Assembly (NCBI GenBank): GCA_016789905.1
Contig: JAEUQC010000035.1
Span: forward strand, 1-33,729
Reading direction: 5' to 3'
DNA: 33,729 nt
Source: Bryobacterales bacterium
GTDB taxonomy: Bacteria > Acidobacteriota > Terriglobia > Bryobacterales > Bryobacteraceae
The position numbers and the translations under genes were made by a program. This document shows, one piece after another, positions 2,567 through 33,145 of the stretch. A model generated the notes under the pieces. The model ran no database searches and was not told where the DNA came from. It worked only from the letters and a program-made list of their open reading frames with translations. The first letter of the stretch is position 1. Each line of letters opens with the position of its first letter.

Positions 2567-5188
2567 CTAGGCAACCGCTGTGATCGGGGGCGAAAAATCC
2601 AGTTCCCCCCGCAGCGGATTCAGTTCGACTTTGACAATTTGGCCATCGCGGATCTCACCGCCAATCAGCCTTCGCGCCAGCGGCGTCTCCACTTCTTTCT
2701 GGATGATACGCTTTAACGGCCGGGCTCCAAAATTCGGATCATACCCGTTGCGCACCAGCCAGCCCAGCGCCACATCGCTGAACTCCAGCACAATATTCCG
2801 CTCCGCCAGCCGCTTGCGCAGACCGTTCAGTTGAATCTTCACAATCTCTTTCAGGTGTTCTTCGCTCAATGCATGGAAGACGATGATCTCGTCCACCCTG
2901 TTCAGAAATTCCGGACGGAATCCCTGCCGCAGCTCCTCCATCACCGCGCGCTTCATCCGCTCATAGGCATCGCCACGCCAGTCGCCCTTGTGCTCCAGAA
3001 TCCGCGGGCTGCCTATGTTACTCGTCATAATCACAATCGCGTTCTTGAAATCCACCGTCCGCCCCTGCCCATCGGTCAGCCGGCCGTCGTCCAGCACCTG
3101 CAGCAATATGTTGAAAATGTCGCTATGCGCTTTCTCGATTTCATCGAACAGAATCACGCAGTACGGCCGCCGCCGCACCGCTTCCGTCAATTGGCCGCCC
3201 TCTTCGAATCCCACATATCCCGGAGGCGCCCCCACCAGCCGCGATACCGTGTGCTTCTCCTGATACTCCGACATATCAATCCGGATCATCGCCCGTTCAT
3301 CGTCGAATAGAGATTCGGCCAGCGCCCGCGCCAGCTCCGTCTTCCCCACCCCCGTCGGGCCCAGGAAAATAAAGGAGCCAATCGGCCGGTTCGGGTCTTT
3401 CAATCCGCTGCGCGCTCGCAGTACGGCATCGGCCACCGCGTCCACCGCCTCCTCCTGGCCAATCACCCGCTCATGCAGTTCTTTCTCCATGTTCAGCAGC
3501 TTCTGGTTATCCCCGGCCAGCAGCTTCGTCACCGGCACCCCGGTCCAACGGCTCACCACCGCCGCGATATCCTCCTCCGCCACTTCTTCTTTAATCAGCC
3601 GGCCTGTCGTCTCGCCCGCCTCCAGCGCCGCGCTCTCCCGCGCCAGGTCCTTTTCCAGCGCCACCAGCGTTCCGTACTTCAACTCCGCCGCCTTATTCAA
3701 ATCGTACGAACGTTCCGCCCGCTCAATGTCCGCCTTCACGGTCTCAATTTTTTCCTTAATCCCGCGCAGCACGTCCACAGCTTTCTTCTCGTTCTGCCAC
3801 TGCGCCCGCAAGGCGTCGGCCTGCCCCTTCAACTCGGCCAGCTCTTTTTCCAGCCGCGTCAGCCGGTCCTTCGACGCCGCATCGGACTCCTTCCGCAGCG
3901 CCTCCCGTTCAATCTCCAACTGCATCAGCCGCCGCTGCACCTCGTCCAGCTCACTCGGCACCGAATCGATCTCCGTCCGCAGCTTCGCCGCCGATTCATC
4001 CACCAGATCAATCGCCTTGTCCGGCAGAAACCGGTCCGTGATATACCGGTTCGAAAGCACCGCCGCGCTCACCAGGGCAGCGTCTTTAATGCGAACACCG
4101 TGATGCACCTCGTAGCGCTCTCGGAGGCCACGCAGTATGGAAATGGTGTCTTCAACGTTGGGCTGGTCAACCAGCACCGGCTGGAACCGCCGTTCCAGCG
4201 CCGGGTCTTTCTCAATGTACTTCCGGTACTCGTCAAGCGTCGTCGCCCCAATGCAATGCAGCTCTCCCCGGGCCAGCAGCGGCTTCAGCAGATTGCCCGC
4301 GTCCATCGAGCCCTCCGCCTTCCCCGCTCCCACCACCGTATGCAGCTCATCGATGAAGAGGATGATCTTACCCTCGGCCGAAGTCACTTCCTTCAACACG
4401 GCCTTCAATCGCTCTTCAAACTCCCCGCGGAACTTGGCCCCAGCAATCAGCGCCCCCATGTCCAGCGCAATTAGCTTTTTCTCTTTGATCCCTTCCGGCA
4501 CGTCCCCGCGCACAATCCGGTTCGCCAGCCCCTCGGCAATCGCCGTCTTCCCAACGCCCGGCTCGCCAATCAGCACCGGGTTGTTCTTCGTCCGGCGCGA
4601 TAGCACCTGGATCACACGCCGTATCTCCTCATCCCGCCCGATCACCGGGTCCAGCTTGTTCTGCGCCGCCAGTTGCGTCAGGTCCCGGCCATACTTCTCC
4701 AGCGCCTCGTAGCTCGCTTCCGGGTTCTGCGTCGTCACCCGCTGCGCCCCCCGGATCTCCTTCAACGCACTCTCAATCCGTGCCCGCGTCAATCCAAACT
4801 CTTTCAACAGCTTCCCCGCCGGGCCATTGTCGCCCGTAAAGGCTAATAGCAAATGCTCGACGCTTACATAGTCGTCCTTCATCCGCTTCGCCTCGGCCTC
4901 GGCGTCGCTCACCAGCTTGGTCAGCCGTGTCGTCACGTACAGCGATTCCGCGTTCGGCGCCCCCGAAACCTTCGGCAGCTTGTCCAGTTCCTGCACCACC
5001 CGCAGCGAAAACGTGTCCAGCGCCACGTTCGCCCGTTTCAGCAGCGAGGGCACCAGCCCCTGCTCCTGCCGCAGCAGCGCCGCGAAGAGATGTTCGCCAT
5101 CTAGTTGATTATTCGAGTTTTGGACCGCGATGGACTGAGCGGAGCGGAGCGCATCCTGCGATTTTTCGGTCAGCTTGTTGAGATCCAT
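2567..5188 (-). CDS. clpB: ATP-dependent chaperone ClpB
   Basis: Hexameric Hsp100 disaggregase that works with DnaK to pull proteins out of aggregates. At 873 residues it has the usual ClpB length. Visible parts: Clp N-terminal repeat domain (1-145, beginning [18 protein letters not shown]), first AAA+ domain with Walker A GEPGVGKT at 208-215, the long coiled-coil middle domain (about 400-530, many K/E/R heptads) that separates ClpB from ClpA/ClpC, second AAA+ domain with Walker A GPTGVGKT at 610-617, and the C-terminal D2-small domain. A purine-rich AGAGAGG stretch lies about 10 nt before the ATG. It is the first gene of the clpB-lon pair. I found no CIRCE-type inverted repeat upstream. Confidence 0.97.
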
Positions 5189-5218
5189 GATGTGAGTGCC
5201 TCTCTATCAATTAAATGC

Positions 5219-5247
5219 AGTGTAGCACCATAAAGTTTCGAAAACAA
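5219..5247 (-). promoter_or_regulatory. Candidate sigma70-like promoter of clpB-lon
   Basis: Read leftward, TTGTTT (5247-5242) and TACACT (5224-5219) are separated by exactly 17 nt. A TGC directly before the -10 gives an extended -10 (TGn). It lies 31-59 nt upstream of the clpB start. This is a pattern match only; the same TGC-TACACT string recurs upstream of the DGR template repeat. Confidence 0.4.
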
Positions 5248-5274
5248 TCACTTGCTCGTCTGTAATCCCAGCCA

Positions 5275-5838
5275 CTAGCCGCGATCCCGAAAAACCCACT
5301 TGCAACCCACCCCCCGCCACAAGCCGCGAACCGGGAAACTCCACATGCAACCCCAAATCCCGCCGGGACACGTTTCAACGTGTCCCAGAACGCGCTACCA
5401 CCCCACAACGGCGTACCGCCCGCCTGAACCCCCGCCGCAAGCCGCGAACCGGGAAAACCCCACATGCAACCCAAATCCCGCCGGGACACGTTTCAACGTG
5501 TCCCAAAACGCACTACCACCCCCACAACGGCGTACCGCCCGCCTGAACCCCCGCCACAAGCCGCGAACCGGGAAACCCCACATGCAACCCAAAATCCCGC
5601 CGGGACACGTTTCAACGTGTCCCAGAACGCACTACCACCCACAACGGCGTACCGCCCGCCTGAACCCCCGCCGCAAGCCGCGAACCGGGAAAACCCCACA
5701 TGCAACCCCAAAACCCGCCGGGACACGTTTCAACGTGTCCCAGAACGCACTACCACCCCCACAACGGCGTACCGCCCGCCTGAACCCCCGCCACAAGCCG
5801 CGAACCGGGAAACCCCTCCGGCAACCCCCAACCCCCCA
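5275..5838. repeat. Tandem array of about 118-bp repeats with a 22-bp palindrome
   Basis: Four near-identical units with period 118-119 bp, plus degenerate partial copies at both edges. Each full unit holds a perfect palindrome with arms gggacacgtt and aacgtgtccc around TC, at 5365-5386, 5483-5504, 5602-5623 and 5720-5741. The rest of the unit alternates between CGCCGCAAGCC and CGCCACAAGCC variants. The strand-wide open frames through it are low-complexity and change frame with unit length, so I see no gene here. It separates clpB from the 3' end of the next leftward gene. The unit resembles a dispersed intergenic REP-like element; the array at the right end of the window shares its core. Confidence 0.9.
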
Positions 5839-5872
5839 AACTGAGTTGCCCCCACCTAGGAAAACCCGGAAT

Positions 5873-8383
5873 CTAACGCACCACTACCGAATACGCCTTC
5901 GACCCCTGCGCCCCCACCCGCAACACCAAGGGATACGTCCCCGGCCCAACTCCCGCCGGAATCTCTACATTCACCTGGTACACACCCCCAATAATCCCCG
6001 GTGCCCCGCCTGCAAACGTCACCGGAGCCTCCGCTCCCCCCAGCGTCGCCGTCACCGTCCCAGTCACAGGCAACACCGGCGAAGCCGGCACAAAATCGCC
6101 CAGCGCCAGCGTCCCGGTCAGAACGCCCAGCCCCGTCGCATACACCGCCAGGCTCCGCCCCTCCTGCACCGCGGCGAAGATGCCCGGTGTCGCCGCCTGC
6201 ACACGAATCGTCGCCGGATAGAACAATTGCAGCCCCTGCCAGGAAAAGTACAACTGATACGAATTCCCCGCCGGCGCCGCTATCGGCGTCGCCACCGTCA
6301 CCTGTTGGTCGTTCGAATACACCACCGGCAGCGTCGTCCCGGTCAACGCCGATTCCGGAATCGTTCCCGAAAAATTCCCCAGCACCAGCGCCGGATAGGG
6401 CGCCGGCTGGCCGCCGGCCCGCAGCACGCCATCCAGCACCAGCCCCTGACCCTCTGCCGGTCCCAGCCCCGTCCCGAAAAGCGTCACCAGTCCACGGGGG
6501 GAAACCGTGTCGGCAAAGTCGTAGGACGCAGCATTCACTACCGCGTTGATCTTCGGCTGCGGCGTCCATCGGCACGCCTCGGCGCCCTCAAAACGATAAA
6601 AACCGCCATCGTTGAAATGCACGAACACCGCCCCGCCTCCAGCCGTCACATAGTCGGGCGTGCTTGCGGTTTCCAGCCATTCAATCCGTCCCGGCTCCCC
6701 CCGGAACAACCGGCCCGCGGCAATGAAATACGGCGGCGCCACAGATGTCATCGGCAGGAATCGCAGCCCGCCCCGCACCTCGCCAAGCCCGGCCGGCGTC
6801 AGCCGCCACGCGCTCCGGAAGTTCGTCCCGTTCCCGGCGATCGCCACCGCCGTCCCGTCCTCCATGCGCCCCATCGAGTTCAACCCCGGTATCGTAATCC
6901 GGCTCACCGTCTGGCTCGCCCGCGTCCATACCGACACTTCCACCGTCAATACCCCGCCAGCCGGCGTCGACGCCGCCGCGTTCCAATAAATGTTCCCCTG
7001 TTCGTCCGTCGTTATCCGTTGTAGCGTGGAAAAAGTTCCCAGCGGCGCAAATACCACCGACTGCCCATCCGCCGTTTTCAACTCCGTCACCTTCCCGTCC
7101 ACCCCAACCACCAGAATCCGCCGCCGGTTCACGTCCGCCAACACGATCCGGCCCGCCGGGTCCACCGCGAACGTCACCAGCCCGAAAATACTCAGCTCCG
7201 TCGCCGTTTTTCCGTCCGCGTCTCCAATGTCATTGCCCCCCCCCACAATGAACTTCGCCGCCTGCCCGGCCCGCACTTCCACAATTCCGCTCCGGCCCTC
7301 CAACGTCGCCGAATAGAGCAGCGAATTGTTCCGCGCCAAATACGCTCCAAACGGCGGCGCCTGCCCGTCCACCACGGCCGGAACCGGCGCCCCGCCCAAT
7401 ACGGTCTGCACCCGGTTGGCAATCCGCACCAGCGGCGTTCGCTGCTCCGGCCTCGTTGAGCCCTCGAAATAGAGCTCGCCGCCCGGCCCCACCGCCCGCG
7501 GCGTCCCCGTAAACGGTGGATACGGCGCCGCACCCGTTTCAATATTCCCATCCGCCCGCAGCGGAAACACGCGATTAGCCGTCGCCGCCGCCGGCGTCCC
7601 ATCACCCAGCAGCAGTATGTTGATCGATGCGTCGAAGTTTGAATTCACCGTCCGAATCATCCCGTCCGCCGTTATCGATCGAATGTGCCGTCCCGATAAG
7701 TCACGCAGCCATAGGCTCCCATCGCGCAGCGGAATCACCTGCCGCGGCGACGATAGCGCCGCCTCCGTCGCCGGCCCGTCATCCCCCGTTCGCCCCGCCG
7801 CCGCTGCCACCCGCGTCGATCCGGCTATCGTCCGCAACCGCCCGTCTCCCTCCAGCCGCCGCACCCGGTTGAACCCGTCCAGTATCACCAGCGCTCCTTC
7901 CCCCGAGAAGGCAATATTCACAATCCCGCCCAGGTTCACCTCCGCCGCCGGTCCCGACTCCCCATTGAAACCCGGCCGCCCCGATCCCGCCGCCACCTCA
8001 ATGCGTTCCCCGGCTATCTTGAACACACGCCCCACCGACACAAAATGCACCACCCCATCCGGCGCCACCGCAATCTGTGTCACGTTCGCCAGCGCCGTCC
8101 CCAACGCCGGCCCGGGCCCCATCGTCTCCGCCCGCGCTCCCGTCCCGGCCACCGTCCGCATCCGCCCGTCCCCATCGATTCGCCGGATCCGGCTCGCCGT
8201 GTCGAACAGGTAAACTACGTTCCCCGGCGCTACCGCCATCACCGCCGTCTGGAACGTTTGCGATTCGGTCGCCCGCTCTCCTTCCTCCACCTTAAGCGGA
8301 GGCTGCGCCGGGCTCAGCGGAACGAAACGGCACTCTTGCGCCAGCGCCGAAAGACTAACAACCAATAGACAGAGGATTCGCAT
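5873..8383 (-). CDS. Secreted NHL/beta-propeller-like protein with TIGR03437-type C-terminal domain
   Basis: Starts with a Sec signal peptide (MRILCLLVVSLSALAQ). Residues about 45-500 contain repeated blade-like segments such as VYLFDTASRIRRIDGDGRMRT and LVILDGFNRVRRLEGDGRL, the pattern of NHL-type propellers. From about residue 610 (INAVVNAASYDFADTVSPRG, then LVTLFGTGLGP) it matches the C-terminal domain typical of Solibacter proteins (TIGR03437). It ends with a bacterial Ig-like fold segment (VNVEIPAGVGPGTYPLVLRVG). Likely exported or surface-exposed; the substrate is unknown. It has 836 residues, no clear Shine-Dalgarno before the ATG at 8383, and is downstream of a small acidic gene on the same strand. 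Function beyond adhesion or carbohydrate/protein binding cannot be inferred. Confidence 0.85.
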   Translation of the reverse strand: MRILCLLVVSLSALAQECRFVPLSPAQPPLKVEEGERATESQTFQTAVMAVAPGNVVYLFDTASRIRRIDGDGRMRTVAGTGARAETMGPGPALGTALANVTQIAVAPDGVVHFVSVGRVFKIAGERIEVAAGSGRPGFNGESGPAAEVNLGGIVNIAFSGEGALVILDGFNRVRRLEGDGRLRTIAGSTRVAAAAGRTGDDGPATEAALSSPRQVIPLRDGSLWLRDLSGRHIRSITADGMIRTVNSNFDASINILLLGDGTPAAATANRVFPLRADGNIETGAAPYPPFTGTPRAVGPGGELYFEGSTRPEQRTPLVRIANRVQTVLGGAPVPAVVDGQAPPFGAYLARNNSLLYSATLEGRSGIVEVRAGQAAKFIVGGGNDIGDADGKTATELSIFGLVTFAVDPAGRIVLADVNRRRILVVGVDGKVTELKTADGQSVVFAPLGTFSTLQRITTDEQGNIYWNAAASTPAGGVLTVEVSVWTRASQTVSRITIPGLNSMGRMEDGTAVAIAGNGTNFRSAWRLTPAGLGEVRGGLRFLPMTSVAPPYFIAAGRLFRGEPGRIEWLETASTPDYVTAGGGAVFVHFNDGGFYRFEGAEACRWTPQPKINAVVNAASYDFADTVSPRGLVTLFGTGLGPAEGQGLVLDGVLRAGGQPAPYPALVLGNFSGTIPESALTGTTLPVVYSNDQQVTVATPIAAPAGNSYQLYFSWQGLQLFYPATIRVQAATPGIFAAVQEGRSLAVYATGLGVLTGTLALGDFVPASPVLPVTGTVTATLGGAEAPVTFAGGAPGIIGGVYQVNVEIPAGVGPGTYPLVLRVGAQGSKAYSVVVR

Positions 8384-11810: not shown

Positions 11811-14800
11811 ATGCGCTACCTCCTCGCTCTCCTTTCCTTCGCTCTTCCCGCCCTTGCCCAAACCGCCACCGGCACCATCAATGTCGTCGCTGAGGATTCC
11901 ACCCAGGCCGTCATCCAAAACGCCACCATCACCGTCACCAACAAAGCCACCGGCCTCTCCCGCTCCGGCGCCGCCGGCGAACGCGGCGAGTTCCAGGCCA
12001 CCTTCCTCCCCGCCGGTGAATACTCCATCACCGCCCAGTCACCCGGCTTCAAACGTTCCAACATCGCCAGTTTCACTCTTCAGGTCGATCAGAACGCCAC
12101 CGTCCGCCTCACCCTCACCCCAGGCGACGTCGTCGAAACCGTTCAAGTCTCCGAATCCACCCCACTCCTCGAAGCCGACACCTCCTCCCTCGGCCAGGTC
12201 ATCGAAAACAAGAAAATCCTCGAACTCCCCCTCAACGGCCGCAACCCCTTCGCCCTCGGCCTCCTCGCCGGCAACACCACTCCCGTCACAGGCATGGGCA
12301 CCAATCTCCCCTTCATCGCCGGTGGCGGCCGATTCTCTTCCAACGAAGTCCTCCTCGATGGCGTCGACAACAACACCACCGTCACCGCCGGCGCCATCGG
12401 CCGCAGCGGCGTCGCCCTCCAGCCCAGCGTCGACGCCGTCCAGGAGTTCAAAGTCAAAACCAACTCCTTCTCCGCCGAATTCGGCCACGCCGCCGGCGCC
12501 GTCATCTCCGCCACCATCAAAAGCGGCGCCAACGACTACCACGGCACTCTCTTCGAATTCCTTCGCAACGACAAACTCGACGCCAATAACTTCTTCACCA
12601 ACGCCGCCGGCCTCCCCCGCGCCGCCTTCCGCCAAAACCAGTTCGGCGGCGTCTTCGGCGGCCGCATTATCCGCAACAAAACCTTCTTCTTCGGCGATTA
12701 CCAGGGCACCCGCCAGCGCACCGCCGCCGCCTCCTCCATCGGCAGCCTTCCGCCCACCGCCATCCGCTCCGGGGATCTCTCCTCCCTCCGCACCCCCATC
12801 TTCGATCCCCTCGCTCGCCGTCTCGCCGCCAATGGCGCCGTCGTCAGCACTCCCTTCACCGGCGCCGTCATCCCCCAGTCCCGCATCAACGCCTCCTCCA
12901 CCGCCGTCCTCAAACTCATCCCCGAACCCAACTTCGGCGTCGCCGGCGTCCAGTCCCGCAACTTCTTCCGCCAAATCCCCCGCGGCTTCGATCAGGACCA
13001 GTGGGACGTCCGTGTCGATCACGCCCTCACCGCCAACCACAACCTCTTCGGCCGCGTCTCTAAAAGCAATCAAACCAACCCCCAGCCCGGCACCATCGAC
13101 GGCTTCATCGGCGGCGGCAGCACCCTCTATCGCGACATCTTCCAGGCCGTCCTCAACGACACCGTCGTCTTCTCCCCCACCACCGTCAACGAGTTCCGCG
13201 CCGGCTACACCCGCCACAACGGCAGCCGTATCGTCAACGAAGTCGCCGACGGCGCCAAATTCGCCACCGAAAACCGCGTCGCCCTCTTCCCCTTCCCTGT
13301 CTCCGGCTTCCCCTCCATTGCATTCAACTTCTCCGGCGAAGGCACCGGCTCCACCCAGTTCGACGGCTTCGGCGGCGGCTCCAGTGACCTCAACTACGAA
13401 AACCGCTTCCACTTCGCCGACACCGTCTCCATCAACCGCTCCCAGCACGCCATGAAGTTCGGCGCCGACTTCCGCCGCAACCGTTTCGACACCCTCCGCG
13501 GCAACCCCTTCTTCGGCCAGTTCATCTTCGGTTCCATCTTCTCTTCCAGCAGCGACACCCCAGGCTCCGGCGCCCCCTTCGCCGATTACCTCATGGGCTT
13601 CCCCTCCCTCATCCAGGGCACCCAAATGCTCGATTGGGGCCGCCAGGCCGATGTCTACTTCGGCGCCTTCTTCCAGGACGATTGGAAGCTCTCCAAAAAG
13701 CTCACCCTCAACTTCGGCCTCCGCTACGACCTCTACACCCAGCCCATCGATATCCGTAACCGCGGCGGCCTCTTCGATCTCGATAAAGCCCGCTTCGCCG
13801 TCCCCGGCGCCGATGGCTACACCCGCGCCATTGTCGACGGCGATCACAACAACATCGGCCCCCGCGCCGGCTTCGCCTGTCAGGCCGGCCGCCGCTGGGT
13901 CATGCGCGGCGGCTACGGCATCTTCTACGGTCTCCGCGATCAGAATCAGGAGGTCACCCAACTCGCCGGAAACAATCCCAATACCCCAGCCCTCATCGCC
14001 CCCGTCGTCAGCGCCTCCCGCACCGTCGCCCCGCCCTACACCATCAATACGCCCGTCCTTGCCGGCCCCACCGCCACCACCCTCGAAGCCTATAGCGCCA
14101 CGTCCCCCCTCACGCGCACCATCCGTTCCCAGGGCTTCCACGACGCCCGTTTCCCTCGCCTCGAACAGTACAACTTCTCCCTGCAGTTCCAGCCCGCCGA
14201 AGCTCTGCTCATTGAAACCTCCTACCAGGGCGCCCGCGGCCGCGACCTCGCCACGCTCTTCATCAACGTCAACCAGGTGCCCTTTGAATACGCCCTCGAC
14301 GGCCGTAACATCCAGCGCAACCGGCCCTACCCCATGGTCAACGGCACCGTCATCCCAACGTTCTCAAAGGCCAAGTCCAACTACAACGCCTTCAACCTCC
14401 GTGTCGAAAAGCGCCACCGCAACGGCCTCAACTTCCTCGCCAACTACACCTGGCAGAAGAACATGGAGGAAGGCGGCTCCGGCCCCAGTGCGTTCACCCA
14501 GAACGGCGGCACGTCCATTGCGCTCGACGCCTATAACCTCTCCCGCGAAAAGGGCCTAGCGCCCATCGACGTGGCCCATATCTTCAACGTGAGCTACGGC
14601 TACGAACTCCCCTTCGGCCCCGGCCAGCGTTGGGCCAGCGGCGGCGGCCCGCTCGGCAAGGTCATCGGCGGCTGGCAGGTCAACGGCATAACCACGCTCC
14701 GTGGCGGCTTTCCCACCGACATCCGCACCAACCGCCTCCCGCCCATTTTCAACACCTTCAACGTGCCGGACCGCGTCAAGGGCGAACCCGTTCAAGTCAC

Positions 14801-15185
14801 CAGCAACCGCGGCCCCGATCGCTTCTTCAACCCCGCGGCCTTCCGCGTCCCGGGCACCACGCCGTCCAACACCGGCGCGCCCATTCAGCTCTTCGGCGAT
14901 TCGGCCCGCCGCGTCGCCCGAGGCCCCGGCTCGGTCAACTTCGATTTCTCGCTCTTCAAAGAAGTGACATTCAACGAGCGCATGCGCCTCCAGTTCCGTG
15001 CCGAGGCGTTCAACCTCACCAACACGCCCACGTTCTCGCTCGCCAGTTCCAACAGCCCGCCTATGACCTGCATCGGCCGCACGCCCGGCTCCGCCTGCAA
15101 CGACAACAACCCGGAGTTCGGCAAGCTCAGCGGCGCCCAGGCCACCGGCCGCCAGTTGCAGTTCGGTTTGAAGTTTTTGTTCTGA
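11811..15185 (+). CDS. Oar-like TonB-dependent outer-membrane receptor
   Basis: 1124 residues. Signal peptide MRYLLALLSFALPALAQ; carboxypeptidase-regulatory/Ig-like beta-sandwich domain at about 20-105 (ATGTINVVAEDSTQAVIQNATITV); plug domain at about 115-240 (ILELPLNGRNPFAL, EVLLDGVDNN, VQEFKVKTN); then a long beta-barrel with alternating aromatic strands ending in LQFGLKFLF, the terminal Phe expected of outer-membrane barrels. The family is strongly expanded in Acidobacteria, where such proteins import large substrates or act as surface proteins; the substrate is not known here. Codon third positions are strongly C-rich up to about position 14200. The purine-rich aaggaat sits before the ATG. 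Confidence 0.93.
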   Translation: MRYLLALLSFALPALAQTATGTINVVAEDSTQAVIQNATITVTNKATGLSRSGAAGERGEFQATFLPAGEYSITAQSPGFKRSNIASFTLQVDQNATVRLTLTPGDVVETVQVSESTPLLEADTSSLGQVIENKKILELPLNGRNPFALGLLAGNTTPVTGMGTNLPFIAGGGRFSSNEVLLDGVDNNTTVTAGAIGRSGVALQPSVDAVQEFKVKTNSFSAEFGHAAGAVISATIKSGANDYHGTLFEFLRNDKLDANNFFTNAAGLPRAAFRQNQFGGVFGGRIIRNKTFFFGDYQGTRQRTAAASSIGSLPPTAIRSGDLSSLRTPIFDPLARRLAANGAVVSTPFTGAVIPQSRINASSTAVLKLIPEPNFGVAGVQSRNFFRQIPRGFDQDQWDVRVDHALTANHNLFGRVSKSNQTNPQPGTIDGFIGGGSTLYRDIFQAVLNDTVVFSPTTVNEFRAGYTRHNGSRIVNEVADGAKFATENRVALFPFPVSGFPSIAFNFSGEGTGSTQFDGFGGGSSDLNYENRFHFADTVSINRSQHAMKFGADFRRNRFDTLRGNPFFGQFIFGSIFSSSSDTPGSGAPFADYLMGFPSLIQGTQMLDWGRQADVYFGAFFQDDWKLSKKLTLNFGLRYDLYTQPIDIRNRGGLFDLDKARFAVPGADGYTRAIVDGDHNNIGPRAGFACQAGRRWVMRGGYGIFYGLRDQNQEVTQLAGNNPNTPALIAPVVSASRTVAPPYTINTPVLAGPTATTLEAYSATSPLTRTIRSQGFHDARFPRLEQYNFSLQFQPAEALLIETSYQGARGRDLATLFINVNQVPFEYALDGRNIQRNRPYPMVNGTVIPTFSKAKSNYNAFNLRVEKRHRNGLNFLANYTWQKNMEEGGSGPSAFTQNGGTSIALDAYNLSREKGLAPIDVAHIFNVSYGYELPFGPGQRWASGGGPLGKVIGGWQVNGITTLRGGFPTDIRTNRLPPIFNTFNVPDRVKGEPVQVTSNRGPDRFFNPAAFRVPGTTPSNTGAPIQLFGDSARRVARGPGSVNFDFSLFKEVTFNERMRLQFRAEAFNLTNTPTFSLASSNSPPMTCIGRTPGSACNDNNPEFGKLSGAQATGRQLQFGLKFLF

Positions 15186-15193
15186 CATAGCGC

Positions 15194-15219
15194 CGGCACG
15201 CCACCCGGGCATCGTGCCG
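15194..15219. terminator. Inverted repeat after the Oar-like gene
   Basis: Arms cggcacg (15194-15200) and cgtgccg (15213-15219) pair perfectly around a 12-nt loop, 9 bp after the receptor stop codon. No T-run follows, so it is at best a weak or Rho-assisted terminator. It marks the left edge of the DGR cassette. Confidence 0.3.
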
Positions 15220-15231
15220 TCCAATGGATTG

Positions 15232-15573
15232 ATGCCCACTTCACCAACTCCGCCCGTCGCACTCGAAAGAGCCTACTCACTCACCCTTCGGCTGATCGCA
15301 AAAACAAACAGCCTGCCCCGCTCCCACCGCTTCACGCTCGGAGACCGCATCTATGCCCTATCCCTCGATCTCGTTACCAGCCTGACGCAGGCCACCTTCA
15401 GCCATGACAAATCGCGCACCCTGGAAACGGCAAGCGAGCGGGTTAACTCACTCCGCATTCTCCTCCGCCTTGCCCAAGACCTCAAGCTCCTGTCGTTCGA
15501 TTCCTACGTCCACGCCACCACCAGCTTGGACGAAATCGGCCGTATGATCGGCGGTTGGCGGAAAGCGCGATGA
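15232..15573 (+). CDS. avd: DGR accessory variability determinant (Avd-like four-helix bundle protein)
   Basis: 113 residues from the ATG at 15232 (GGA seven nt upstream); an in-frame GTG at 15214 is the alternative start. The sequence is almost entirely helical with heptad-like hydrophobics (ALERAYSLTLRLIAKTN, IYALSLDLVTSLTQA, ASERVNSLRILLRLAQDLKLL, YVHATTSLDEIGRMIGGWRKA), matching the four-helix Avd/S23-like fold. Avd proteins form a positively charged pentamer that binds the DGR reverse transcriptase and the template RNA and are needed for mutagenic cDNA synthesis. The stop overlaps the RT start (ATGA at 15570-15573), so the two are translationally coupled. Assignment rests on length, helix pattern and location before a DGR-type RT and TR/VR pair. 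Confidence 0.88.
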   Translation: MPTSPTPPVALERAYSLTLRLIAKTNSLPRSHRFTLGDRIYALSLDLVTSLTQATFSHDKSRTLETASERVNSLRILLRLAQDLKLLSFDSYVHATTSLDEIGRMIGGWRKAR

Positions 15574-16633
15574 GCGAACTCTGGGCGCACCTCACCGGGG
15601 CCCCAAACCTCTTCCATGCCGCCCGCCGCGCTGCCGCCGGCAAAAAGTCACGCCCCGATGTCGCCGCCTTTCTGGCCAATCTGGAACCCGAACTCTTCCG
15701 CCTCCAGCGCCAACTCCTCTCCGGCGCCTACCGCCCCGGCCCCTGCCGCGACTTCCGCATCGCCGATCCCAAGCCCCGCCTCATCTCCGCCGCACCCTTC
15801 CCGGACCGCGTCATCCATCACGCGATAACGAACGTCGCCGAACCCCTATTCGAGCACCGCTTCGTTCCTTACTCCTACGCCTGCCGCACCGGTTTCGGAA
15901 CCCACAAAGCGCTCGACCACGCCCGCCAGTCCTGCGCCCGCCACTCCTTTGTCTTGAAGCTCGATATCCGCAAATACTTCCCCTCCATGGACCATCAAAT
16001 CCTCCTGGACCTCCTCGCCCGCGTCATCCGCTGCCCCAACACCCTGAAACTGATCGAAACCATCCTCGCCAGTTCCTCCCTCCCGGAGGACATGATCCAC
16101 TACTTCCCCGCCGATACCCTATTCACGCCCACCAGCGCCGTCGCGGGCTCCCTCTCGGCAATCAAACCTCTCAGTTTTTCGCCAACGTCTACCTCAACCC
16201 CATGGACCAAATGATAGTCCGCAACCTCCGTCCCGGCGCCTACGCCCGCTACGTCGACGATTTCCTGCTCTTCTCCCACAGCAAGGAACAACTCCACGAA
16301 ATGCATCACGCCATCCGCGAATTCCTCTACGGCCTCCGCCTCTCCCTCCACCCCGGCAAATCCCGCGTCTACCGCTGCCTCGATGGCTTTCCATTCCTCG
16401 GCTTCCGTTTGTTCCCGGATCATATGCGTCTGGTGCGCCCAAACGTTGTCCGCTTCCGCCGCCGCCTCCGCCAACTGCATGCGGACTTCCATGCCGGGCT
16501 TATCAGCAAGGAAACGGTCAATCAATCCGTGCGGGCCTGGATCGGCCATGCCATGCATGGGGACACCTGGCATCTCCGCGAACAGTTATTTGAACAGTTC
16601 CCGTTCCTTTCAGGCATATTCCCGCCCGAATAG
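15570..16633 (+). CDS. DGR reverse transcriptase, frameshifted in this sequence
   Basis: RNA-directed DNA polymerase that copies the template RNA with errors at adenines. The ATG at 15570 overlaps the avd stop (ATGA). N-terminal part in one frame: MSELWAHLTGAPNL..., RISAAP-type segment KPRLISAAPFPDRVIHHA, and motif A with Asp132 in LKLDIRKYFPSMD. The reading frame then moves by -1 between about 16128 and 16141. Conserved RT sequence resumes in the other frame as RGLPLGNQTSQFFANVYLN, catalytic YVDD at 16250-16261, and the thumb region GFPFLGFRL. Joined, the product is about 354 residues, normal for DGR RTs. One missing base would restore LFTPTS-RRRGLP. The unshifted frame ends at 16214. Whether it is a sequencing artefact, a real mutation or recoding cannot be decided here; I see no classic slippery heptamer. 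Confidence 0.92.
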
Positions 16634-16649
16634 CGCGGCCCTGGCCGCG
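16634..16649. other. Perfect hairpin directly after the RT stop
   Basis: Arms cgcggcc and ggccgcg flank CT, beginning on the base after the RT TAG. It could terminate or stabilise the rightward RT message, or form the 3' end of the leftward template RNA. No T-run on either side. Confidence 0.4.
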
Positions 16650-16737
16650 AGCCGAGCCCAAGACCAGGACCTGTTTTTGTTTGACGTAAGGTTGCCCCCG
16701 CGTCGGGACCGCCGCCCGGTAATGGAAAAGCACGCTC

Positions 16738-16755
16738 CCGCCGATCCCTCGGCGG
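16738..16755. other. Perfect hairpin in the TR spacer
   Basis: Arms ccgccga and tcggcgg (7 bp) around the tetraloop tccc, midway in the spacer between TR and the RT 3' end. Consistent with a folded DGR spacer RNA that recruits RT/Avd; role inferred. Confidence 0.4.
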
Positions 16756-16793
16756 AACTCTGGCGGCAGGCAGTTACACCTGTTCCATGTCCA

Positions 16794-16906
16794 CCGGCCA
16801 GCCGGAACCCCAGGGTATTGTTCTGTTCGTCCGGTTGGTTGTTGTTACGGTACGACGAGCGCGCGTTCCTTCGATTGTTGTTGAAGGCCCCGCCCCGCCA
16901 CACGTT
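16794..16906 (-). repeat. DGR template repeat (TR)
   Basis: A 113-bp non-coding copy of the last part of the target gene, offset by 241 bp from the VR. In coding sense it reads as VWRGGAF-NNN-RRNARSSYR-NNN-QPDEQNN-TLGFRLAG, with AAC/AAT codons at the positions that vary; this codon choice is the usual DGR design because adenines are the mutable bases. It has 30 adenines in coding sense; 19 differ in the VR and 11 do not. The 83 other bases are all identical. The adenine-poor stretch 16794-16815 at the 3' side (initiation of mutagenic homology) is unchanged. Confidence 0.96.
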
Positions 16907-16926
16907 ACGGCTGCGTTCCGCTTCAC

Positions 16927-16935
16927 AGTGTAGCA
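16927..16935 (-). promoter_or_regulatory. Candidate extended -10 element for the template RNA
   Basis: Read leftward it is TGC-TACACT, an extended -10, placed about 21 nt before the TR begins. The same nine bases form the candidate clpB -10. No good -35 is visible, which extended -10 promoters can tolerate. Purely a pattern inference. Confidence 0.35.
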
Positions 16936-16947
16936 ATGCCAGTCCGG

Positions 16948-16969
16948 GCGAGGGGGCTCGCCCCCTCGC
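16948..16969. other. Strong hairpin between VR and TR
   Basis: Arms gcgagggggc and gccccctcgc (10 bp, perfect) around TC, 53 bp past the target stop codon and 65 bp beyond the VR edge. In some DGRs a hairpin or cruciform just downstream of the VR promotes retrohoming; this one is farther away than in the Bordetella phage. It may alternatively end the target transcript, but no T-run follows. Confidence 0.5.
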
Positions 16970-17021
16970 GCTCCCCCGCCGGCATTCCAGGTCGCGCGTC
17001 AAAAGGAAAAGGGAAAAAACC

Positions 17022-20000
17022 TCAAGGGATTCCCCCGGCCAGCCGGAACCCCAGGGTAAGGCTCTGAACGACCGGCTGGCCGAAGAGACGGCACGACGAG
17101 CGCGCGTCCCTCCGATTGTTGCCGAAGGCCCCGCCCCGCCACACGTAGGTTCCGGAGCCCTTCTCCCACTCGGAGGAAGTCCACTCCCACACATTCCCGA
17201 TCATGTCGCAAGCCCCCTCCGCGCTCGCTCCTGAGGGATACAATCCCACCGGCGTTGGACGATGCAGATTGCTTTCGGAATAGTTGGCTCGCGACGGATT
17301 GATATCCGCGTTACCCCAGGGATACTTCGTACAGTTCGGCCCTCGCGCCGCCCGCTCCCACTCCTCCTCCGTTGGTAGCCTTCCCCCGGCCCACTTGCAG
17401 TAGGCTGCCGCCTGGTGCCAGGTCACATGCACAACTGGCCAATTTGGATACTCCAACTGCACTTCCCATTTTTCTGGCACCCGGTTTGGGGCGTTGCCGT
17501 CCTCTACGAAGCGCTGATACTCGGCCACTGTCACCGGGTATTTGCCAATTCGGAAAGCCGCCAAGTCCACCACGCGCGGCGTCTCATCTTCATACGCCTC
17601 CTTATCGTAGTGCCGCCCGTGTTTATCCTCGCTCTGCGCGCCAATCCAGTAGTTCTCTGACGCCGGAATCTCTACCCACTCCTGTTTCGCCAGCCGCGAA
17701 TCCCCAGCCTGTCCCAACGCCTCCGCCGCCGCCAATCGGTCATCAAATGGTACACTTCTCGACTTCTCCCCATCAAAAATATCCATCACCAGCCGTAGGG
17801 ATTCCGCATACCGGAGATCGGCCACCTCATACCCCGCCAAGTCCTGTAGCAGCGCCCCAATGAAGCCCACACATTGCGCTCGCCGGGCGAGCGTCGGCCG
17901 CTCTCCCATCCCATCCAGCACATTCCGCAGAAACGCGTTCACCTTCGCCGGCCCCGCTTTATACAGCAACCCGCCATACAGCAGCACCGTCTCCCGCCAC
18001 TCCGGCCGGTAAATCTTCGCGTCGTCTCCCAGCAACAATGCGTGTTGGTCCGCGTCCTCCAGTCCCGCAATCTCCAGCGCCGCTAAATACTCCTGAAACG
18101 TCAAGTGCCAAAACGCGATATCCTCCCCTCGGCTCACCACAATGCCGCTATCCGACTCTTCGGCGACCAGAAACCGTTCCACCTCATCCTTCGTCCCAAA
18201 TCGGCCTCGCAACCGGTCCCCCGCCCAGGCCAGCGGCGCCTGCTTCCGGCGGCCCTCGGAATCAAGTTGCATCGCCAGCGCCAACGTCCGCAACCGCATT
18301 AGACACTCGTCCGGACTCTTTCGCCCTGCCGCCCTGTCCCGCTTCTCCGACAGCCATTTCACAATGGAAGCGTACAGGTCCACCCGCTTCTCCGGCAGCT
18401 TCACGTTGTTATGCTGCAGCACCGCCAGCGCCGTCAGCATCACCGGATTCCGCGCCATCTTCCGGATCTCCCGCCTTCCGTTAACCGACGATAACAACTC
18501 CTCCCGGAACTTCCTCTCCGCCGTACCATCCGCCGGATACAACAGCTTGGCCAGCTTTGCCAGAAACTCACAAATCGCCTCCGGCTCCAGATCTCCAATC
18601 GACCGTTCCTCAAACCCCGAAATCAGCACCTTGCCTTCCGGTCGCGATGTAACTACAAACCGGCACCCGGCATAGGCCGCGGCAGATTTCCCAATCAGTT
18701 TCGCCATCCATTTGCGGGATGTCCGGTCCGGCGTCTCGTCCAGCCCGTCGATCAAAACCTGGCAGCCGCCCGCCTGGAGTTTCTCGCGAAAATACTCCGC
18801 CCCCAATTCGCATAGATTGTTTTCTTCGCAGTGGTTCTCCAGAAACAGCGGAATCCACTCGGGTGACGTATCCTCCGCCGGCCCCGTCTTGGGGTACCGC
18901 TGGCCGACGAAGTTCGCAAGCGCCGCCGCCTCTATCCGCACCGGCAATGGCGCCCCTTCTCGCCAATCGCGGCTCAAATGAAACGCCACTCGCTTCAGAA
19001 ACGTGCTCTTCCCCGCCCCCGGATCGCCCACCAGCAGCAAAGTCCTATGCGCGTCAAGCGCTTCCTCGAGCGGAATGGACCGCCCGCGATCTCCCACACC
19101 ATCCGCCGCTCCCGTGGTCGTCAACGGAAGATAGAACTCGTCCATCGGGAACTTGTATGCCTTGTTCTCTCCCACCACCAACCCCTGCACCTCGAAGTAA
19201 CATGTCGCCTCGCGCATCGCATGCAGATAGCGGCTTGGATCATGGGCCTTCTTCGGCGTCCATGCCTGGCCATAGGCCGAAAAACGAAGGTCCTTCTTTG
19301 TGATCCAGGTGTCGCCCTTCTCGGAACTCCGGTTGTCCCCAATCCACTCCTTCCGGCCCATGTCGTATCCGCGCGTCCACCGCTCGACTCCCGTAGCCGT
19401 CAGCCGCAAACATTGATACTGATTCGGCACCTCGGCTGGCCGCTGCGCCCGCTCCAATGCCGCGCTGCCCGTCGACACCACCAGCAGATCCCCCAGCCGG
19501 TCCCACTTCGCATTGTGCGTGTGTCCATGCAACAGCAGATCCAGCGATCCGCCTAAAATCTGGCGCAAATCCCCCGCATCCCGCAGATTCTCATCGTCGT
19601 CCGTATCGCCCCGGATCACATTGTGATGCACCAGCCCCAGCACCGCCCAGTCCTCCCGCGGATACCGCGCCAACTCCCGTTCAAACCATCGCAATTGGTT
19701 CTCGCCAACCTGCCCATAGTGCGTGTTGTCCAAATGGCTCTCCGCCATCGTCGAATTCAGCCCCGCCACAACCAGCCGAAGTTCCGGCATCTCCCAAAGG
19801 CTCCACGGCTGCGCTTCGGTAAACGGAGTCCCGTAAAACTGCTTATACAGGTTCGCGTAGAGCTCCCACTTCGGCCAGAAAGGAGGTTTCGGCTTTTTCT
19901 CATTCCCTTCGCATTGAGCAAAGTACGCTTCGCAGAGCTTGCGATTAATGTCGTGATTCCCCGGAACAATCGCCACGCGCTCCCGCGGAATTTTCAGGTA

Positions 20001-20264
20001 ATTGCAGAGCCCATCAAGCAACAAATAGACATCGTCAAACTCACTCTTCCGCCCCCACTCCGCCAAATCCCCGGTCACCACCACCGCATCCGGCTTCACG
20101 CCGTAGTCCGTCCGCAAACCCTCCAGATCCAGTTCCAGCCGCTTGTATAGAGTGTCAAACTGCAGGTCCTCATCCGCCGTCTGCCAATTCCCAAATCTAT
20201 GATGCCGCCCAAACTGCGTGTCGGAAAGGTGAAGGAGAGTAACTGAGTCGCGTTCGGCCGCCAT
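17022..20264 (-). CDS. DGR target: phosphoesterase-NACHT NTPase-FGE/lectin-fold variable protein
   Basis: 1080 residues, no signal peptide or membrane segment, so cytoplasmic. Residues about 8-300 form a calcineurin-like metallophosphoesterase: HLSDTQFG (Asp15, with Gln17 where His is usual), GDLAEWG (Asp66), GNHD (102-105), VHHN (213-214), GHTH (247-250). Residues about 395-720 form a NACHT-type STAND NTPase: Walker A GDPGAGKST (413-421), Walker B LIDGLDE (504-510), TSRP sensor, and FWHLTFQEYLAALE closing the module. After a helical linker, 860-1080 is an FGE-sulfatase domain of C-type-lectin fold (PVTVAEYQRFV, GGRLPTEEEWERAARG, YPWGN, GNVWEWTSS, WRGGAF, GFRLAG). The last 41 residues carry the VR. 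By family analogy, ligand binding by the variable domain would trigger STAND oligomerisation and activate the phosphoesterase effector. The start is divergent from the GH42 gene, 61 bp apart. Confidence 0.94.
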   Translation of the reverse strand: MAAERDSVTLLHLSDTQFGRHHRFGNWQTADEDLQFDTLYKRLELDLEGLRTDYGVKPDAVVVTGDLAEWGRKSEFDDVYLLLDGLCNYLKIPRERVAIVPGNHDINRKLCEAYFAQCEGNEKKPKPPFWPKWELYANLYKQFYGTPFTEAQPWSLWEMPELRLVVAGLNSTMAESHLDNTHYGQVGENQLRWFERELARYPREDWAVLGLVHHNVIRGDTDDDENLRDAGDLRQILGGSLDLLLHGHTHNAKWDRLGDLLVVSTGSAALERAQRPAEVPNQYQCLRLTATGVERWTRGYDMGRKEWIGDNRSSEKGDTWITKKDLRFSAYGQAWTPKKAHDPSRYLHAMREATCYFEVQGLVVGENKAYKFPMDEFYLPLTTTGAADGVGDRGRSIPLEEALDAHRTLLLVGDPGAGKSTFLKRVAFHLSRDWREGAPLPVRIEAAALANFVGQRYPKTGPAEDTSPEWIPLFLENHCEENNLCELGAEYFREKLQAGGCQVLIDGLDETPDRTSRKWMAKLIGKSAAAYAGCRFVVTSRPEGKVLISGFEERSIGDLEPEAICEFLAKLAKLLYPADGTAERKFREELLSSVNGRREIRKMARNPVMLTALAVLQHNNVKLPEKRVDLYASIVKWLSEKRDRAAGRKSPDECLMRLRTLALAMQLDSEGRRKQAPLAWAGDRLRGRFGTKDEVERFLVAEESDSGIVVSRGEDIAFWHLTFQEYLAALEIAGLEDADQHALLLGDDAKIYRPEWRETVLLYGGLLYKAGPAKVNAFLRNVLDGMGERPTLARRAQCVGFIGALLQDLAGYEVADLRYAESLRLVMDIFDGEKSRSVPFDDRLAAAEALGQAGDSRLAKQEWVEIPASENYWIGAQSEDKHGRHYDKEAYEDETPRVVDLAAFRIGKYPVTVAEYQRFVEDGNAPNRVPEKWEVQLEYPNWPVVHVTWHQAAAYCKWAGGRLPTEEEWERAARGPNCTKYPWGNADINPSRANYSESNLHRPTPVGLYPSGASAEGACDMIGNVWEWTSSEWEKGSGTYVWRGGAFGNNRRDARSSCRLFGQPVVQSLTLGFRLAGGIP
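17035..17147 (-). repeat. DGR variable repeat (VR)
   Basis: Matches the TR base for base apart from 19 positions, all at template adenines. It spans residues 1040-1077 of the target. Substituted residues relative to the template are Tyr1040, Gly1048, Asp1053, Cys1058, Leu1060, Phe1061, Gly1062, Val1065, Val1066, Ser1068 and Leu1069; two further codons change silently. Outside these limits the homology ends abruptly. The 3' part contains the small palindrome ccggc-ca-gccgg at 17035-17046. Confidence 0.96.
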
Positions 20265-22498: not shown

Positions 22499-22993
22499 TC
22501 ACTCGGCGGAGGGCAGCCCCACTTGCTTTCCCTCCCCCCGGTACAACCGCCGTATCCGGATCTCTAGGGTAACCAACGCAACTGGCGACAGTACCGGCCC
22601 AGCCTCCAGCCTCCTCATTTGGTCGTCGATGAGTGAGAGGATTCGCCCATGAATCTCTCGCTCCACTCCTAGGTCGTGCCGAACCCTCTCGCGGCTCCGC
22701 AACGCTCGATAGAGAGTGTAGACCCCGGCCAGCATCAACGTCCCTGCTCCAGCGCCCGCGCCGATTTGATACTTCGCACCCAGTGCCGCTATCTGTCCCT
22801 TTGAATCGAGCGAGATCACGAACGCCAGAATTAGACCGCCGTAGACCATCAATCCGCCAAACAGAGTCGCCAAAATATTGCGTTCGCGAACCTCGTTTAG
22901 CCGGTCGATGGATTCGCTCGATGTCTCCGCCAGCGAAACCAGATCTTGCAACTCCCTCACAATCGGATGTATCTGCTCATTCGTTTCTGTCAT
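22499..22993 (-). CDS. Two-helix membrane protein coupled to GTPase
   Basis: 164 residues from the ATG at 22993, which overlaps the upstream GTPase stop as ATGA; longer starts would run deep into that gene. A soluble helical N-terminus (IHPIVRELQDLVSLAETSSESIDRLNEVRERN) is followed by two transmembrane helices (about 42-62, ATLFGGLMVYGGLILAFVIS, and about 74-95, QIGAGAGAGTLMLAGVYTLYRAL), then a charged coiled-coil-like tail. The shape resembles the two-helix membrane modules found with bacterial conflict-system NTPases (SLATT or TRADD-N-associated membrane domains), but I cannot assign a family from sequence alone. It probably acts at the membrane with the GTPase. Confidence 0.8.
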   Translation of the reverse strand: MTETNEQIHPIVRELQDLVSLAETSSESIDRLNEVRERNILATLFGGLMVYGGLILAFVISLDSKGQIAALGAKYQIGAGAGAGTLMLAGVYTLYRALRSRERVRHDLGVEREIHGRILSLIDDQMRRLEAGPVLSPVALVTLEIRIRRLYRGEGKQVGLPSAE

Positions 22994-23820
22994 GAATGAA
23001 ACTCCGAAATCGCCGCAATCGCCTGCATGAACTCGCGAAGGATCTTCAACTGTTCCTGTCGTTCCAATCCCGACTTCGCCACTTCGCCATTCCACGAAAA
23101 ATCCCGCTCAAACGCGCACGTCTCCAATACATGAACCGCCACGTTCTGTTGCCCGATATCTCTTTGGAAATCGGCCAGCGCCCGCCCAAATCCACCTGAT
23201 CCCAATGGGTGGTAATGGTCCAACGCTGCCTGTCGATCACCCGCAAACAAATCGACCTTGTTCACAGCCACCGCCAGCCACTTCGGACGGCTGTGTTGCT
23301 TTTGCAGCTTCCGTATATCGGAAAGCACCACGCGAAGATCTTCAATCTCCAGCCGCAAATTTCGCTCTCGTAGCTTTGCGATTGTGTCCAGCCCGTCGTT
23401 CTGGATCAGCGCTCTGGCCGATGCTGGATTCCTCGGGGCAACGTAGCCGTAATCCACCAAGTGAATCACACCCTCCAAACCAGCGTTGTTTTGAAAAGTG
23501 CTGATCGCGCCCGCCGCGCGGAAACCCTCCTGCCCTGGCAGAATTCGAACCAGTTTCGTCCAAGCGCCCGCCGTGATCGCCGCCACCTCAACGCTTCTCG
23601 ATTCATCGGGAATCTCAAACGCCAAATCGCGCGCGCTTCCATGCATCTGCGCCGCCAGTATTGTCTTTCCAACCCCGGCATGGCCCGTAAGTACAATTTG
23701 GGTGGCACCTCGGTCGGCGTACGCTTTCAGTTGCGTCCAATATCTCTGTATCGAATGACGATAACTATAGCCCTGTACACCAAGGCGAGCAGCGAGCGAA
23801 ACTGCGGTGGTCCACTCCAT
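22990..23820 (-). CDS. P-loop GTPase-like protein
   Basis: 276 residues. Walker A GHAGVGKT at 46-53, a G3-like LPGQEGF at about 94-100, and the guanine-specificity motif NKVD at 187-190 in WLAVAVNKVDLF indicate a TRAFAC-type small GTPase. The closest analogies are GTPases associated with two-helix membrane partners in conflict or signalling systems. No effector domain is fused. It is the first gene of a two-gene unit with the membrane protein (4-nt overlap) and is divergent from the aldo/keto reductase gene, with a 149-bp gap where I see no clear promoter. The start ATG at 23820 lacks an obvious Shine-Dalgarno sequence; a later start is unlikely because the P-loop is near residue 46. Confidence 0.82.
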   Translation of the reverse strand: MEWTTAVSLAARLGVQGYSYRHSIQRYWTQLKAYADRGATQIVLTGHAGVGKTILAAQMHGSARDLAFEIPDESRSVEVAAITAGAWTKLVRILPGQEGFRAAGAISTFQNNAGLEGVIHLVDYGYVAPRNPASARALIQNDGLDTIAKLRERNLRLEIEDLRVVLSDIRKLQKQHSRPKWLAVAVNKVDLFAGDRQAALDHYHPLGSGGFGRALADFQRDIGQQNVAVHVLETCAFERDFSWNGEVAKSGLERQEQLKILREFMQAIAAISEFHS

Positions 23821-33129: not shown

Positions 33130-33145
33130 CCCCACCCCCACCACC

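Follow-up and report, generated by a model that had tools for sequence, protein, structure and literature searches.

An inverted diversity-generating retroelement with a frame-broken reverse transcriptase gene beside an NLR-like receptor gene in an acidobacterial assembly

The DNA analyzed here (the window) is a stretch of 33,729 nt, positions 1 to 33,729 of contig JAEUQC010000035.1 in assembly GCA_016789905.1 of a Bryobacterales bacterium. Near its middle lies a diversity-generating retroelement (DGR), comprising a template repeat (TR), a variable repeat (VR) within a target gene, the accessory gene avd (accessory variability determinant) and a gene for a reverse transcriptase (RT). The identification of this locus as a real DGR is well supported. 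Its features are as follows.

15176 to 16697, no strand assigned: stretch absent by blastn from the same-genus locus L157 (G013:C521); it holds avd, the RT gene and the far end of the spacer RNA
15214 to 15573, plus strand: avd, 119 amino acids; PF22296 (bAvd) at 68.3 bits (cut-off 40) and NF033474 (DivGenRetAVD) at 88.8 bits (cut-off 80)
15570 to 16214, plus strand: first open piece of the RT gene; RVT_1 profile positions 8 to 106 at 28.9 bits, just below the cut-off of 29.6
16133 to 16633, plus strand: second open piece of the RT gene, in another frame, with the YVDD catalytic motif; RVT_1 profile positions 148 to 205 at 31.1 bits
16626 to 16790, minus strand: structured spacer (Sp) part of the TR RNA, which meets the 3' end of the RT gene; covariance model R1, 176.6 bits
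16790 to 16906, minus strand: TR, with an adenine-only core at 16794 to 16906; repeat search and pairwise alignment
16927 to 16935, minus strand: candidate extended -10 element of the TR RNA, TGnTAYACT, whose end lies 20 nt before the TR
17022 to 20264, minus strand: target gene, 1080 amino acids; metallophosphoesterase (residues 9 to 251), NACHT (407 to 568) and FGE/C-type-lectin sensor (883 to 1076) by Pfam
17023 to 17037, minus strand: terminator-like hairpin and T run at the end of the target gene; terminator scan
17031 to 17147, minus strand: VR, codons 1040 to 1078 of the target gene
17037 to 17618, minus strand: FGE/C-type-lectin-fold sensor domain with the VR; PF03781, 149.8 bits

Read on the minus strand, which is the coding strand, the TR (16794–16906) and the VR (17035–17147) align over 113 gapless positions, 19 of which differ, and every difference falls on a TR adenine. 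The core holds 30 TR adenines, of which 19 are changed (nine A>G, eight A>T and two A>C) and 11 are unchanged, and its non-adenine positions are identical in 83 of 83 cases. If 19 differences were scattered at random among the 113 positions, the probability of all of them hitting the 30 adenines would be 3.2e-14. These figures reproduce exactly the counts given in the initial annotation of this DNA, which had ascribed them to mutagenic retrohoming and not to duplication followed by drift. That attribution is borne out by the adenine-only core, by the presence of Avd and of a DGR-like RT gene, by the FGE/C-type-lectin fold of the target, and by the hypervariability of target homologs and the tracking of TR by VR that are described below. 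Across the genome (8.08 Mb, 216 contigs), a search returned only these two copies of the repeat and no third. No second strain of the species was found, and the 90% cluster of the target protein has one member, from one contig.

The VR forms the 3' end of the target gene, which encodes, within a single protein, a putative effector, a NACHT NTPase and a sensor at the C terminus, the architecture of STAND and NLR-like proteins (by Pfam, and by Foldseek with low TM-scores). The sensor is of FGE type by sequence and by fold, and FGE is described as a subtype of the C-type-lectin (CLec) fold (PMC10907252, cited here, like the other papers below, from excerpts); the VR therefore lies in a C-type-lectin-fold target. 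At E<=1e-5 the sensor domain matched 29 distinct PDB sequences, mostly of FGE or EgtB type. A full-length AlphaFold2 model of the target, built with 37 sequences, reached a mean predicted local distance difference test (pLDDT) score of 86.7 and a predicted TM-score (pTM) of 0.64, and modeling of the sensor domain by itself gave an unusable result (mean pLDDT 34). Foldseek matched the full-length model to FGE-type structures and, over longer alignments, to NLRC4 (4kxf, E 5.2e-12) and NOD2 (5irm, E 5.5e-12). PADLOC matches of the target were weak, the best having a value of 2.9e-8 over residues 57 to 111.

For comparison, DGR loci (L numbers) were collected from the same genus and family, and 50 sources, the window included, were scanned for an RT and for adenine-biased repeats. 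The N-terminal parts joined to the diversified C-terminal domain proved varied: a metallophosphoesterase in the window and L063, a TIR domain in L019, a trypsin-like domain in L059, a kinase in L021, and a caspase in L080 and L083. Of the eight loci in that domain scan, two showed no such part: L057 and L134, the latter with a partial frame. This variety on one diversified domain fits a proposal by Dore et al. (2024, PMC10907252), described by them as untested, that DGR targets serve conflict systems as antigen sensors.

The Avd accessory protein is clearly represented, and a DGR-type RT gene adjoins the TR; its frame, however, is broken. In this assembly the RT gene is split over two frames, one running from 15570 to about 16136 and the other from about 16133 to 16633. 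The first piece corresponds to residues 1 to 189 of a sister RT at 68% identity (tblastn) and is DGR-like to about 16136, where its frame departs from RT sequence before reaching a stop at 16214. The second piece corresponds to residues 189 to 342 of the sister RT at 85% identity. Thus, the assembly holds no intact, catalysis-capable RT, although the YVDD motif itself is kept. Within the same RT lineage the intact protein of L057 has as its best PDB match the ‘Reverse transcriptase’ chain of the 8ub7 series (E 2.2e-52).

Both avd and the RT gene lie on the plus strand and converge on the TR, so that the RT is opposite to the TR, the VR and the target gene, as in inverted DGRs (group 4 of Schillinger et al., G5 of Yan et al.). 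This arrangement was overlooked in the initial annotation. RT and TR are on opposite strands in the window, L017, L057, L058 and L080, and on the same strand in the remaining loci in which both were found; in L056 and L134 the spacer is on the strand opposite the RT. The inverted form is common to the window and five related genomes. It is already known from Shewanella baltica, Vibrio sp. RC586 and Photobacterium angustum (Schillinger et al., 2012, PMC3521204) and as the ‘G5’ cassette, in which the RT is inversed (Yan et al., 2019, PMC6642488), and the window therefore represents a further lineage of it. No acidobacterial inverted DGR was noticed in a literature search of open-licence papers, mostly at the level of titles and abstract openings.

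In an RT tree (FastTree) of 46 of the 47 loci, one having been excluded for fewer than 150 aligned residues, the window, L017, L056, L057, L058 and L060 formed one group with support of 1.0. L080 stood apart from this group and was joined with L095 (support 0.998). The wider groups that hold these two inverted lineages had supports of 0.79 and 0.91, and that of the window clade with its sister was 0.64. This one tree suggests that the window clade and L080 may be independent inverted lineages. L060 (identical to L125) and L134 come from a single genome, G118, in which the ends of their contigs share a 149-base overlap. The hosts of the window group are recorded as Acidobacteria or Terriglobia metagenome-assembled genomes and one Solibacteraceae from peat (L122–L125, L128 and L134). 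A different strand arrangement was observed in L170 (G196:C184, 8103–9837), where the RT is on the plus strand and in two frames, while its own Avd and the spacer RNA are on the minus strand.

Between the TR and the RT gene lies a conserved RNA element. The covariance model R1 was built from six inverted loci, of which the window is one training sequence. The spacers of five other loci are 85.8–86.7% identical to that of the window; between the window and its sister L017, the spacer is 88.7% and the TR 91.5% identical over their length, and the RT DNA is 74.6% (first piece) and 80.0% (second piece) identical. The six spacers share a common structure of 51 pairs in which 98.4% of cells are paired. 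Seven of these pairs carry compensatory changes on both sides, a number reached in none of 500 shuffles; sliding the columns by one to three positions left zero or one. The variable pairs hold 18 G-U cells vs. one A-C, which points to the TR strand as the RNA.

The spacer RNA also appears beyond the window group. R1 was searched in 32 sources, including the six training ones. Among 25 TR-bearing loci outside the window group, inverted L080 included, 15 had a match on the TR strand no more than 20 nt from the TR 3' end (13 at E<=0.01); the remaining ten had none so placed, the match in L068 being 56 nt off. At E<=0.001, R1 was found in 28 of 237 genomes of the family, and a phylum-wide sample of 396 yielded only the window's own match. 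No Rfam family matched the window at the gathering threshold. The BPP-1 spacer has been described as recruiting RT-Avd and priming cDNA (PMC12875486), and by analogy the spacer of the window may serve in RT-Avd recruitment and cDNA priming. As a separate observation, 12 of 17 stretches around spacer-RNA matches (L155 to L166) had no DGR RT match at 1e-6; some of them reach contig edges, and weak R1 matches among them may be chance, while others may be orphan template RNAs.

The candidate promoter element TGnTAYACT occurs at an identical distance from the TR in four of the five inverted loci searched (window, L017, L057 and L058). Two terminator-like sites were found in 16500–17300, where shuffles gave a mean of 0.7; one is at the target gene end and the second is inside the spacer. 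The T run of the former is conserved in A2, and its stem is incompletely kept in L057 and L058.

Comparison among species points to retrohoming in the past of this lineage. Four inverted loci of the window group have a whole TR and VR (L056 and L134 were excluded, since one repeat was lacking or had masked bases). At 13 columns where the TRs of these four species differ without adenine, the VR agreed with its own TR in 49 of 52 cells, the misses being one in the window and two in L017; among the 23 other VR-TR pairings the maximum was 39 cells. Because these diagnostic cells are free of adenine and follow the TR of the same locus, the two repeats have evolved in concert, with the VR rewritten from the TR after the species split. 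Homing continued in the inverted arrangement, since the RT is on the opposite strand in all four species. The target homologs agree with this history. From 119 listed homologs, alignments longer than 150 residues were obtained for 60; the 24 of these with >=55% identity had a mean of 2.19 bits of entropy at the 17 TR-adenine codons vs. 0.41 bits at the 22 other VR codons (Mann-Whitney p 3.5e-7). The RT itself showed dN below dS in all ten comparisons among lineage members.

Lesions of the RT recur among the relatives. The RT of L017 has YVGD in place of YVDD, and its reading frame also continues past the usual end; that of L058 has an internal stop and that of L060 is frame-broken, and the RTs of L056 and L057 were judged intact. 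RT integrity was counted over 47 loci minus four whose RT is cut by a contig end (L020, L071, L087 and L090). In this strict count, four of six RTs of the inverted lineage carried lesions vs. three of 37 elsewhere (Fisher p 0.004). The main count treated as intact four RTs that aligned only in part (L074, L079, L086 and L092), and an alternative count treated them as lesioned. In L058, the target gene also appears frame-broken (4291–7118, two overlapping open frames), and the whole locus may therefore be decaying.

Loss of the RT goes further in other genomes. In L157, an ortholog from the same genus, blastn matched the window at 11828–15175 (90.3% identity) and at 16698–18404 (82.8%), and the two matches are 27 bp apart in L157, so that the stretch with avd, the RT and the far end of the spacer is missing. 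Since RT and spacer share this junction in other genera, we read its absence as a deletion. L157 keeps TR and VR, which differ by 17 adenine substitutions, one non-adenine substitution and a 3-base gap over 116 nt; elsewhere in its genome only a distant RT match was found (29% identity, E 7.7e-6). In L155 and L156, one repeat is joined straight to the spacer, and no RT match was found in the 12–14 kb examined around each. All three loci fit later stages of loss. Nine genomes had a spacer above 80 bits: the RT was judged intact in two (G124 and G193), lesioned in four (G000, G005, G021 and G118) and not found in three (G013, G183 and G186), G013 and G183 being only 75% and 86% complete.

Given these results, we consider it probable that the window holds a DGR of the inverted type, with its footprint at the sensor tip of an NLR-like protein and with an RT gene that is broken in the assembly, and that retrohoming was likely recent and has likely stopped. 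The initial annotation had seen in the footprint a sign of recent activity. Recent retrohoming at the locus is supported; present activity in this strain is doubtful, because the RT is split over two frames, searches of the genome gave no further DGR-type RT, and avd and RT are both missing from this locus in a congener.

Several observations weigh against this reading or parts of it. The repeat extends four bases past its core, to 16790 in the TR and 17031 in the VR, and at this 3' edge there is one non-adenine difference (16793/17034, T in the TR and G in the VR); the full 117-nt repeat thus has 19 adenine differences and one other, and the earlier statement that any non-adenine change is absent applies to the 113-nt core. 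A clean footprint is itself no proof of current activity, since it persists in L157 after loss of the RT. The TM-scores to NOD2 and NLRC4 are low (0.22–0.32, by either length), with large root-mean-square deviations (11–16). Folding of the window TR RNA as a single sequence was no better than that of shuffles (z -0.93; 41 of 200 as good), so that the claim of spacer structure depends on comparing the six sequences. In L080, which is of a separate lineage, no extended -10 motif was found, and a sigma-70 scan of the window gave no two-hexamer site in 16500–17300. The excess of RT lesions was counted post hoc and has a p of about 0.03 under two other counting rules. Among database RT clusters at >=70% identity, 42 of 42 keep YxDD and 36 of 42 are >=340 aa with both of the motifs checked, in a search that favors full-length proteins; the RT lineage at large is therefore not dead, and lesions as a property of the inverted lineage are kept as suggestive only. 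Lastly, the frame break of the window is seen in one assembly, and its presence in the living cell, though likely, is presumed.

This last point leads to the strongest rival, in which the DGR is fully active, an intact RT is made, and the apparent frame break stems from an error of assembly or sequencing. Assemblies can produce net single-base changes of this type, and the identity of TR and VR at all non-adenine core positions, the full-length look of most related database clusters and the low dN of the RT relative to dS agree with activity. We nevertheless regard this as unlikely. The other long frames of the window are unbroken by reading (16 frames, about 29.5 kb), and five of seven scanned frames match families over the expected domains, the other two doing so weakly or partially. 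Moreover, three other genomes of the inverted lineage carry differing RT lesions, and a congener has no RT at the same place.

Programmed ribosomal frameshifting between the two RT pieces, with no lesion at all, would make use of the overlap of the open frames (about 16133 to 16214). It is very improbable: in none of five other inverted-lineage RTs does the frame change here (L017, L056, L057 and L058 read through, and L060 breaks elsewhere), a late shift within the overlap would lose the conserved GLPLGNQTSQ stretch, and no slippery site was noticed by eye, no tool being applied. Complementation of the broken RT in trans by a second DGR RT is likewise very improbable. The genome does have three other RT loci, but a DGR RT query found only the present locus in this genome, which is rated 99.13% complete, and the 20-kb stretches around the other three RTs held neither a tblastn match to the sister DGR RT (1e-5) nor a TR/VR pair; with no second DGR RT found, this explanation was rejected. 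Ordinary duplication with drift or gene conversion, suggested by two tandem copies 241 bp apart, is refuted by the adenine-only core alignment (19 of 19 differences) and is left with a negligible probability by the Avd and RT genes and by the hypervariability of homologs at the same codons.

The preferred reading, an inverted DGR that probably no longer homes, can be put as a mechanism. A minus-strand promoter just upstream of the TR would have produced a TR RNA that also covers the structured spacer and stops where the RT gene ends. The RT and Avd proteins, encoded on the opposite strand, would then bind the spacer and copy the TR into cDNA with random bases at adenines, and the cDNA would replace the VR, altering as many as 17 codons in the sensor with the C-type-lectin fold. 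If other STAND proteins are a guide, the sensor may detect an invader, upon which the NACHT core would oligomerize and the metallophosphoesterase would act as effector.

A broader and tentative reading, which we put forward with less than even confidence, is that the DGRs of this family serve as a temporary workshop for NLR-like receptors. A structured TR-spacer RNA, made in the inverted form from a strand of its own, would diversify the sensor, and loss of RT and Avd would then leave a fixed, germline-like receptor. As parts of the same tentative reading, loss might proceed by point lesion (window), clean deletion (L157) or collapse of VR and TR (L155 and L156), and the spacer RNA might be a family absent from Rfam that marks DGRs, including dead ones. 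Such a course would bear on how adaptive sensors made by DGRs, itself a proposed role, are kept once useful. The apparent stages across congeners and related genera, namely an intact RT (L056 and L057), a broken one (window), deletion of avd and RT with TR and VR kept (G013), and fusion of repeat and spacer (G183 and G186), make a ‘mutate, then freeze’ model testable. The R1 model provides a route to the template RNA, to its strand and to dead DGRs that does not need a VR. The inverted form suggests that the RNA on which RT-Avd acts can be a separate transcript of the opposite strand. The locus is of interest mainly because its spacer RNA is conserved and because loss can be seen in stages.

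The DGR of the Bordetella phage BPP-1 targets a phage tail protein, unlike that of the window, whose target is a bacterial STAND protein. The two share RT and Avd, a TR RNA with a structured 3' spacer and adenine-specific mutation; avd, TR and brt form one operon in BPP-1, whereas avd and RT of the window are opposite the TR (PMC12875486). With the inverted DGRs of Shewanella, Vibrio and Photobacterium and with G5, the window shares an RT frame on one strand with TR, VR and target on the other, and long repeats with about 20 adenine changes. It differs from them, as excerpted (PMC3521204, PMC6642488), in its lineage's acidobacterial hosts, the NLR-like target, the description of a structured spacer RNA and a candidate TR promoter, and the loss or breakage of the RT in seven of nine sampled genomes.

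Like the NACHT/STAND-CLec targets of Thiohalocapsa PB-PSB1 and other multicellular bacteria (Dore et al., 2024, PMC10907252), the window target combines a NACHT core with a CLec sensor at the C terminus that a DGR diversifies. The PB-PSB1 protein P0161 has the same three Pfam domains at 34% identity, matched as a protein and irrespective of its status as a DGR target. The window target differs from the systems of that study, as far as its excerpts go, in its fused N-terminal metallophosphoesterase, and ‘metallophos’, ‘phosphoesterase’, ‘Acidobacter’ and ‘frameshift’ are absent as words from the main text of PMC10907252. The RT genes of PB-PSB1 DGRs are described there as lost or interrupted through transposons, miniature inverted-repeat transposable element (MITE)-like arrays and deletion; in contrast, the window lineage lost its RT to frame breaks or to a clean deletion, and the window genome yielded no second DGR RT. 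The N-terminal metallophosphoesterase also resembles the anti-phage phosphoesterase DS-9 (NCBIfam NF053862) at 93.5 bits, a score far under the curated cut-off of 420, and the architecture differs.

Further features lie elsewhere in the window. Between a clpB-like gene and the next gene, at 5311–5827, there is a tandem array of a 118-bp unit in about 4.4 copies (93% matches), whose units contain the palindrome GGGACACGTTTCAACGTGTCCC. Tandem repeats of long period (160 and 227 bp) occupy the contig end at 33130–33729 and are possibly why the contig stops there. Near the receptor gene, a pair of small minus-strand genes is found at 22990–23820 and 22499–23095; the first matches AAA_16 weakly (21.9 bits against a cut-off of 32.6), and the pair could be another defence or regulatory unit.

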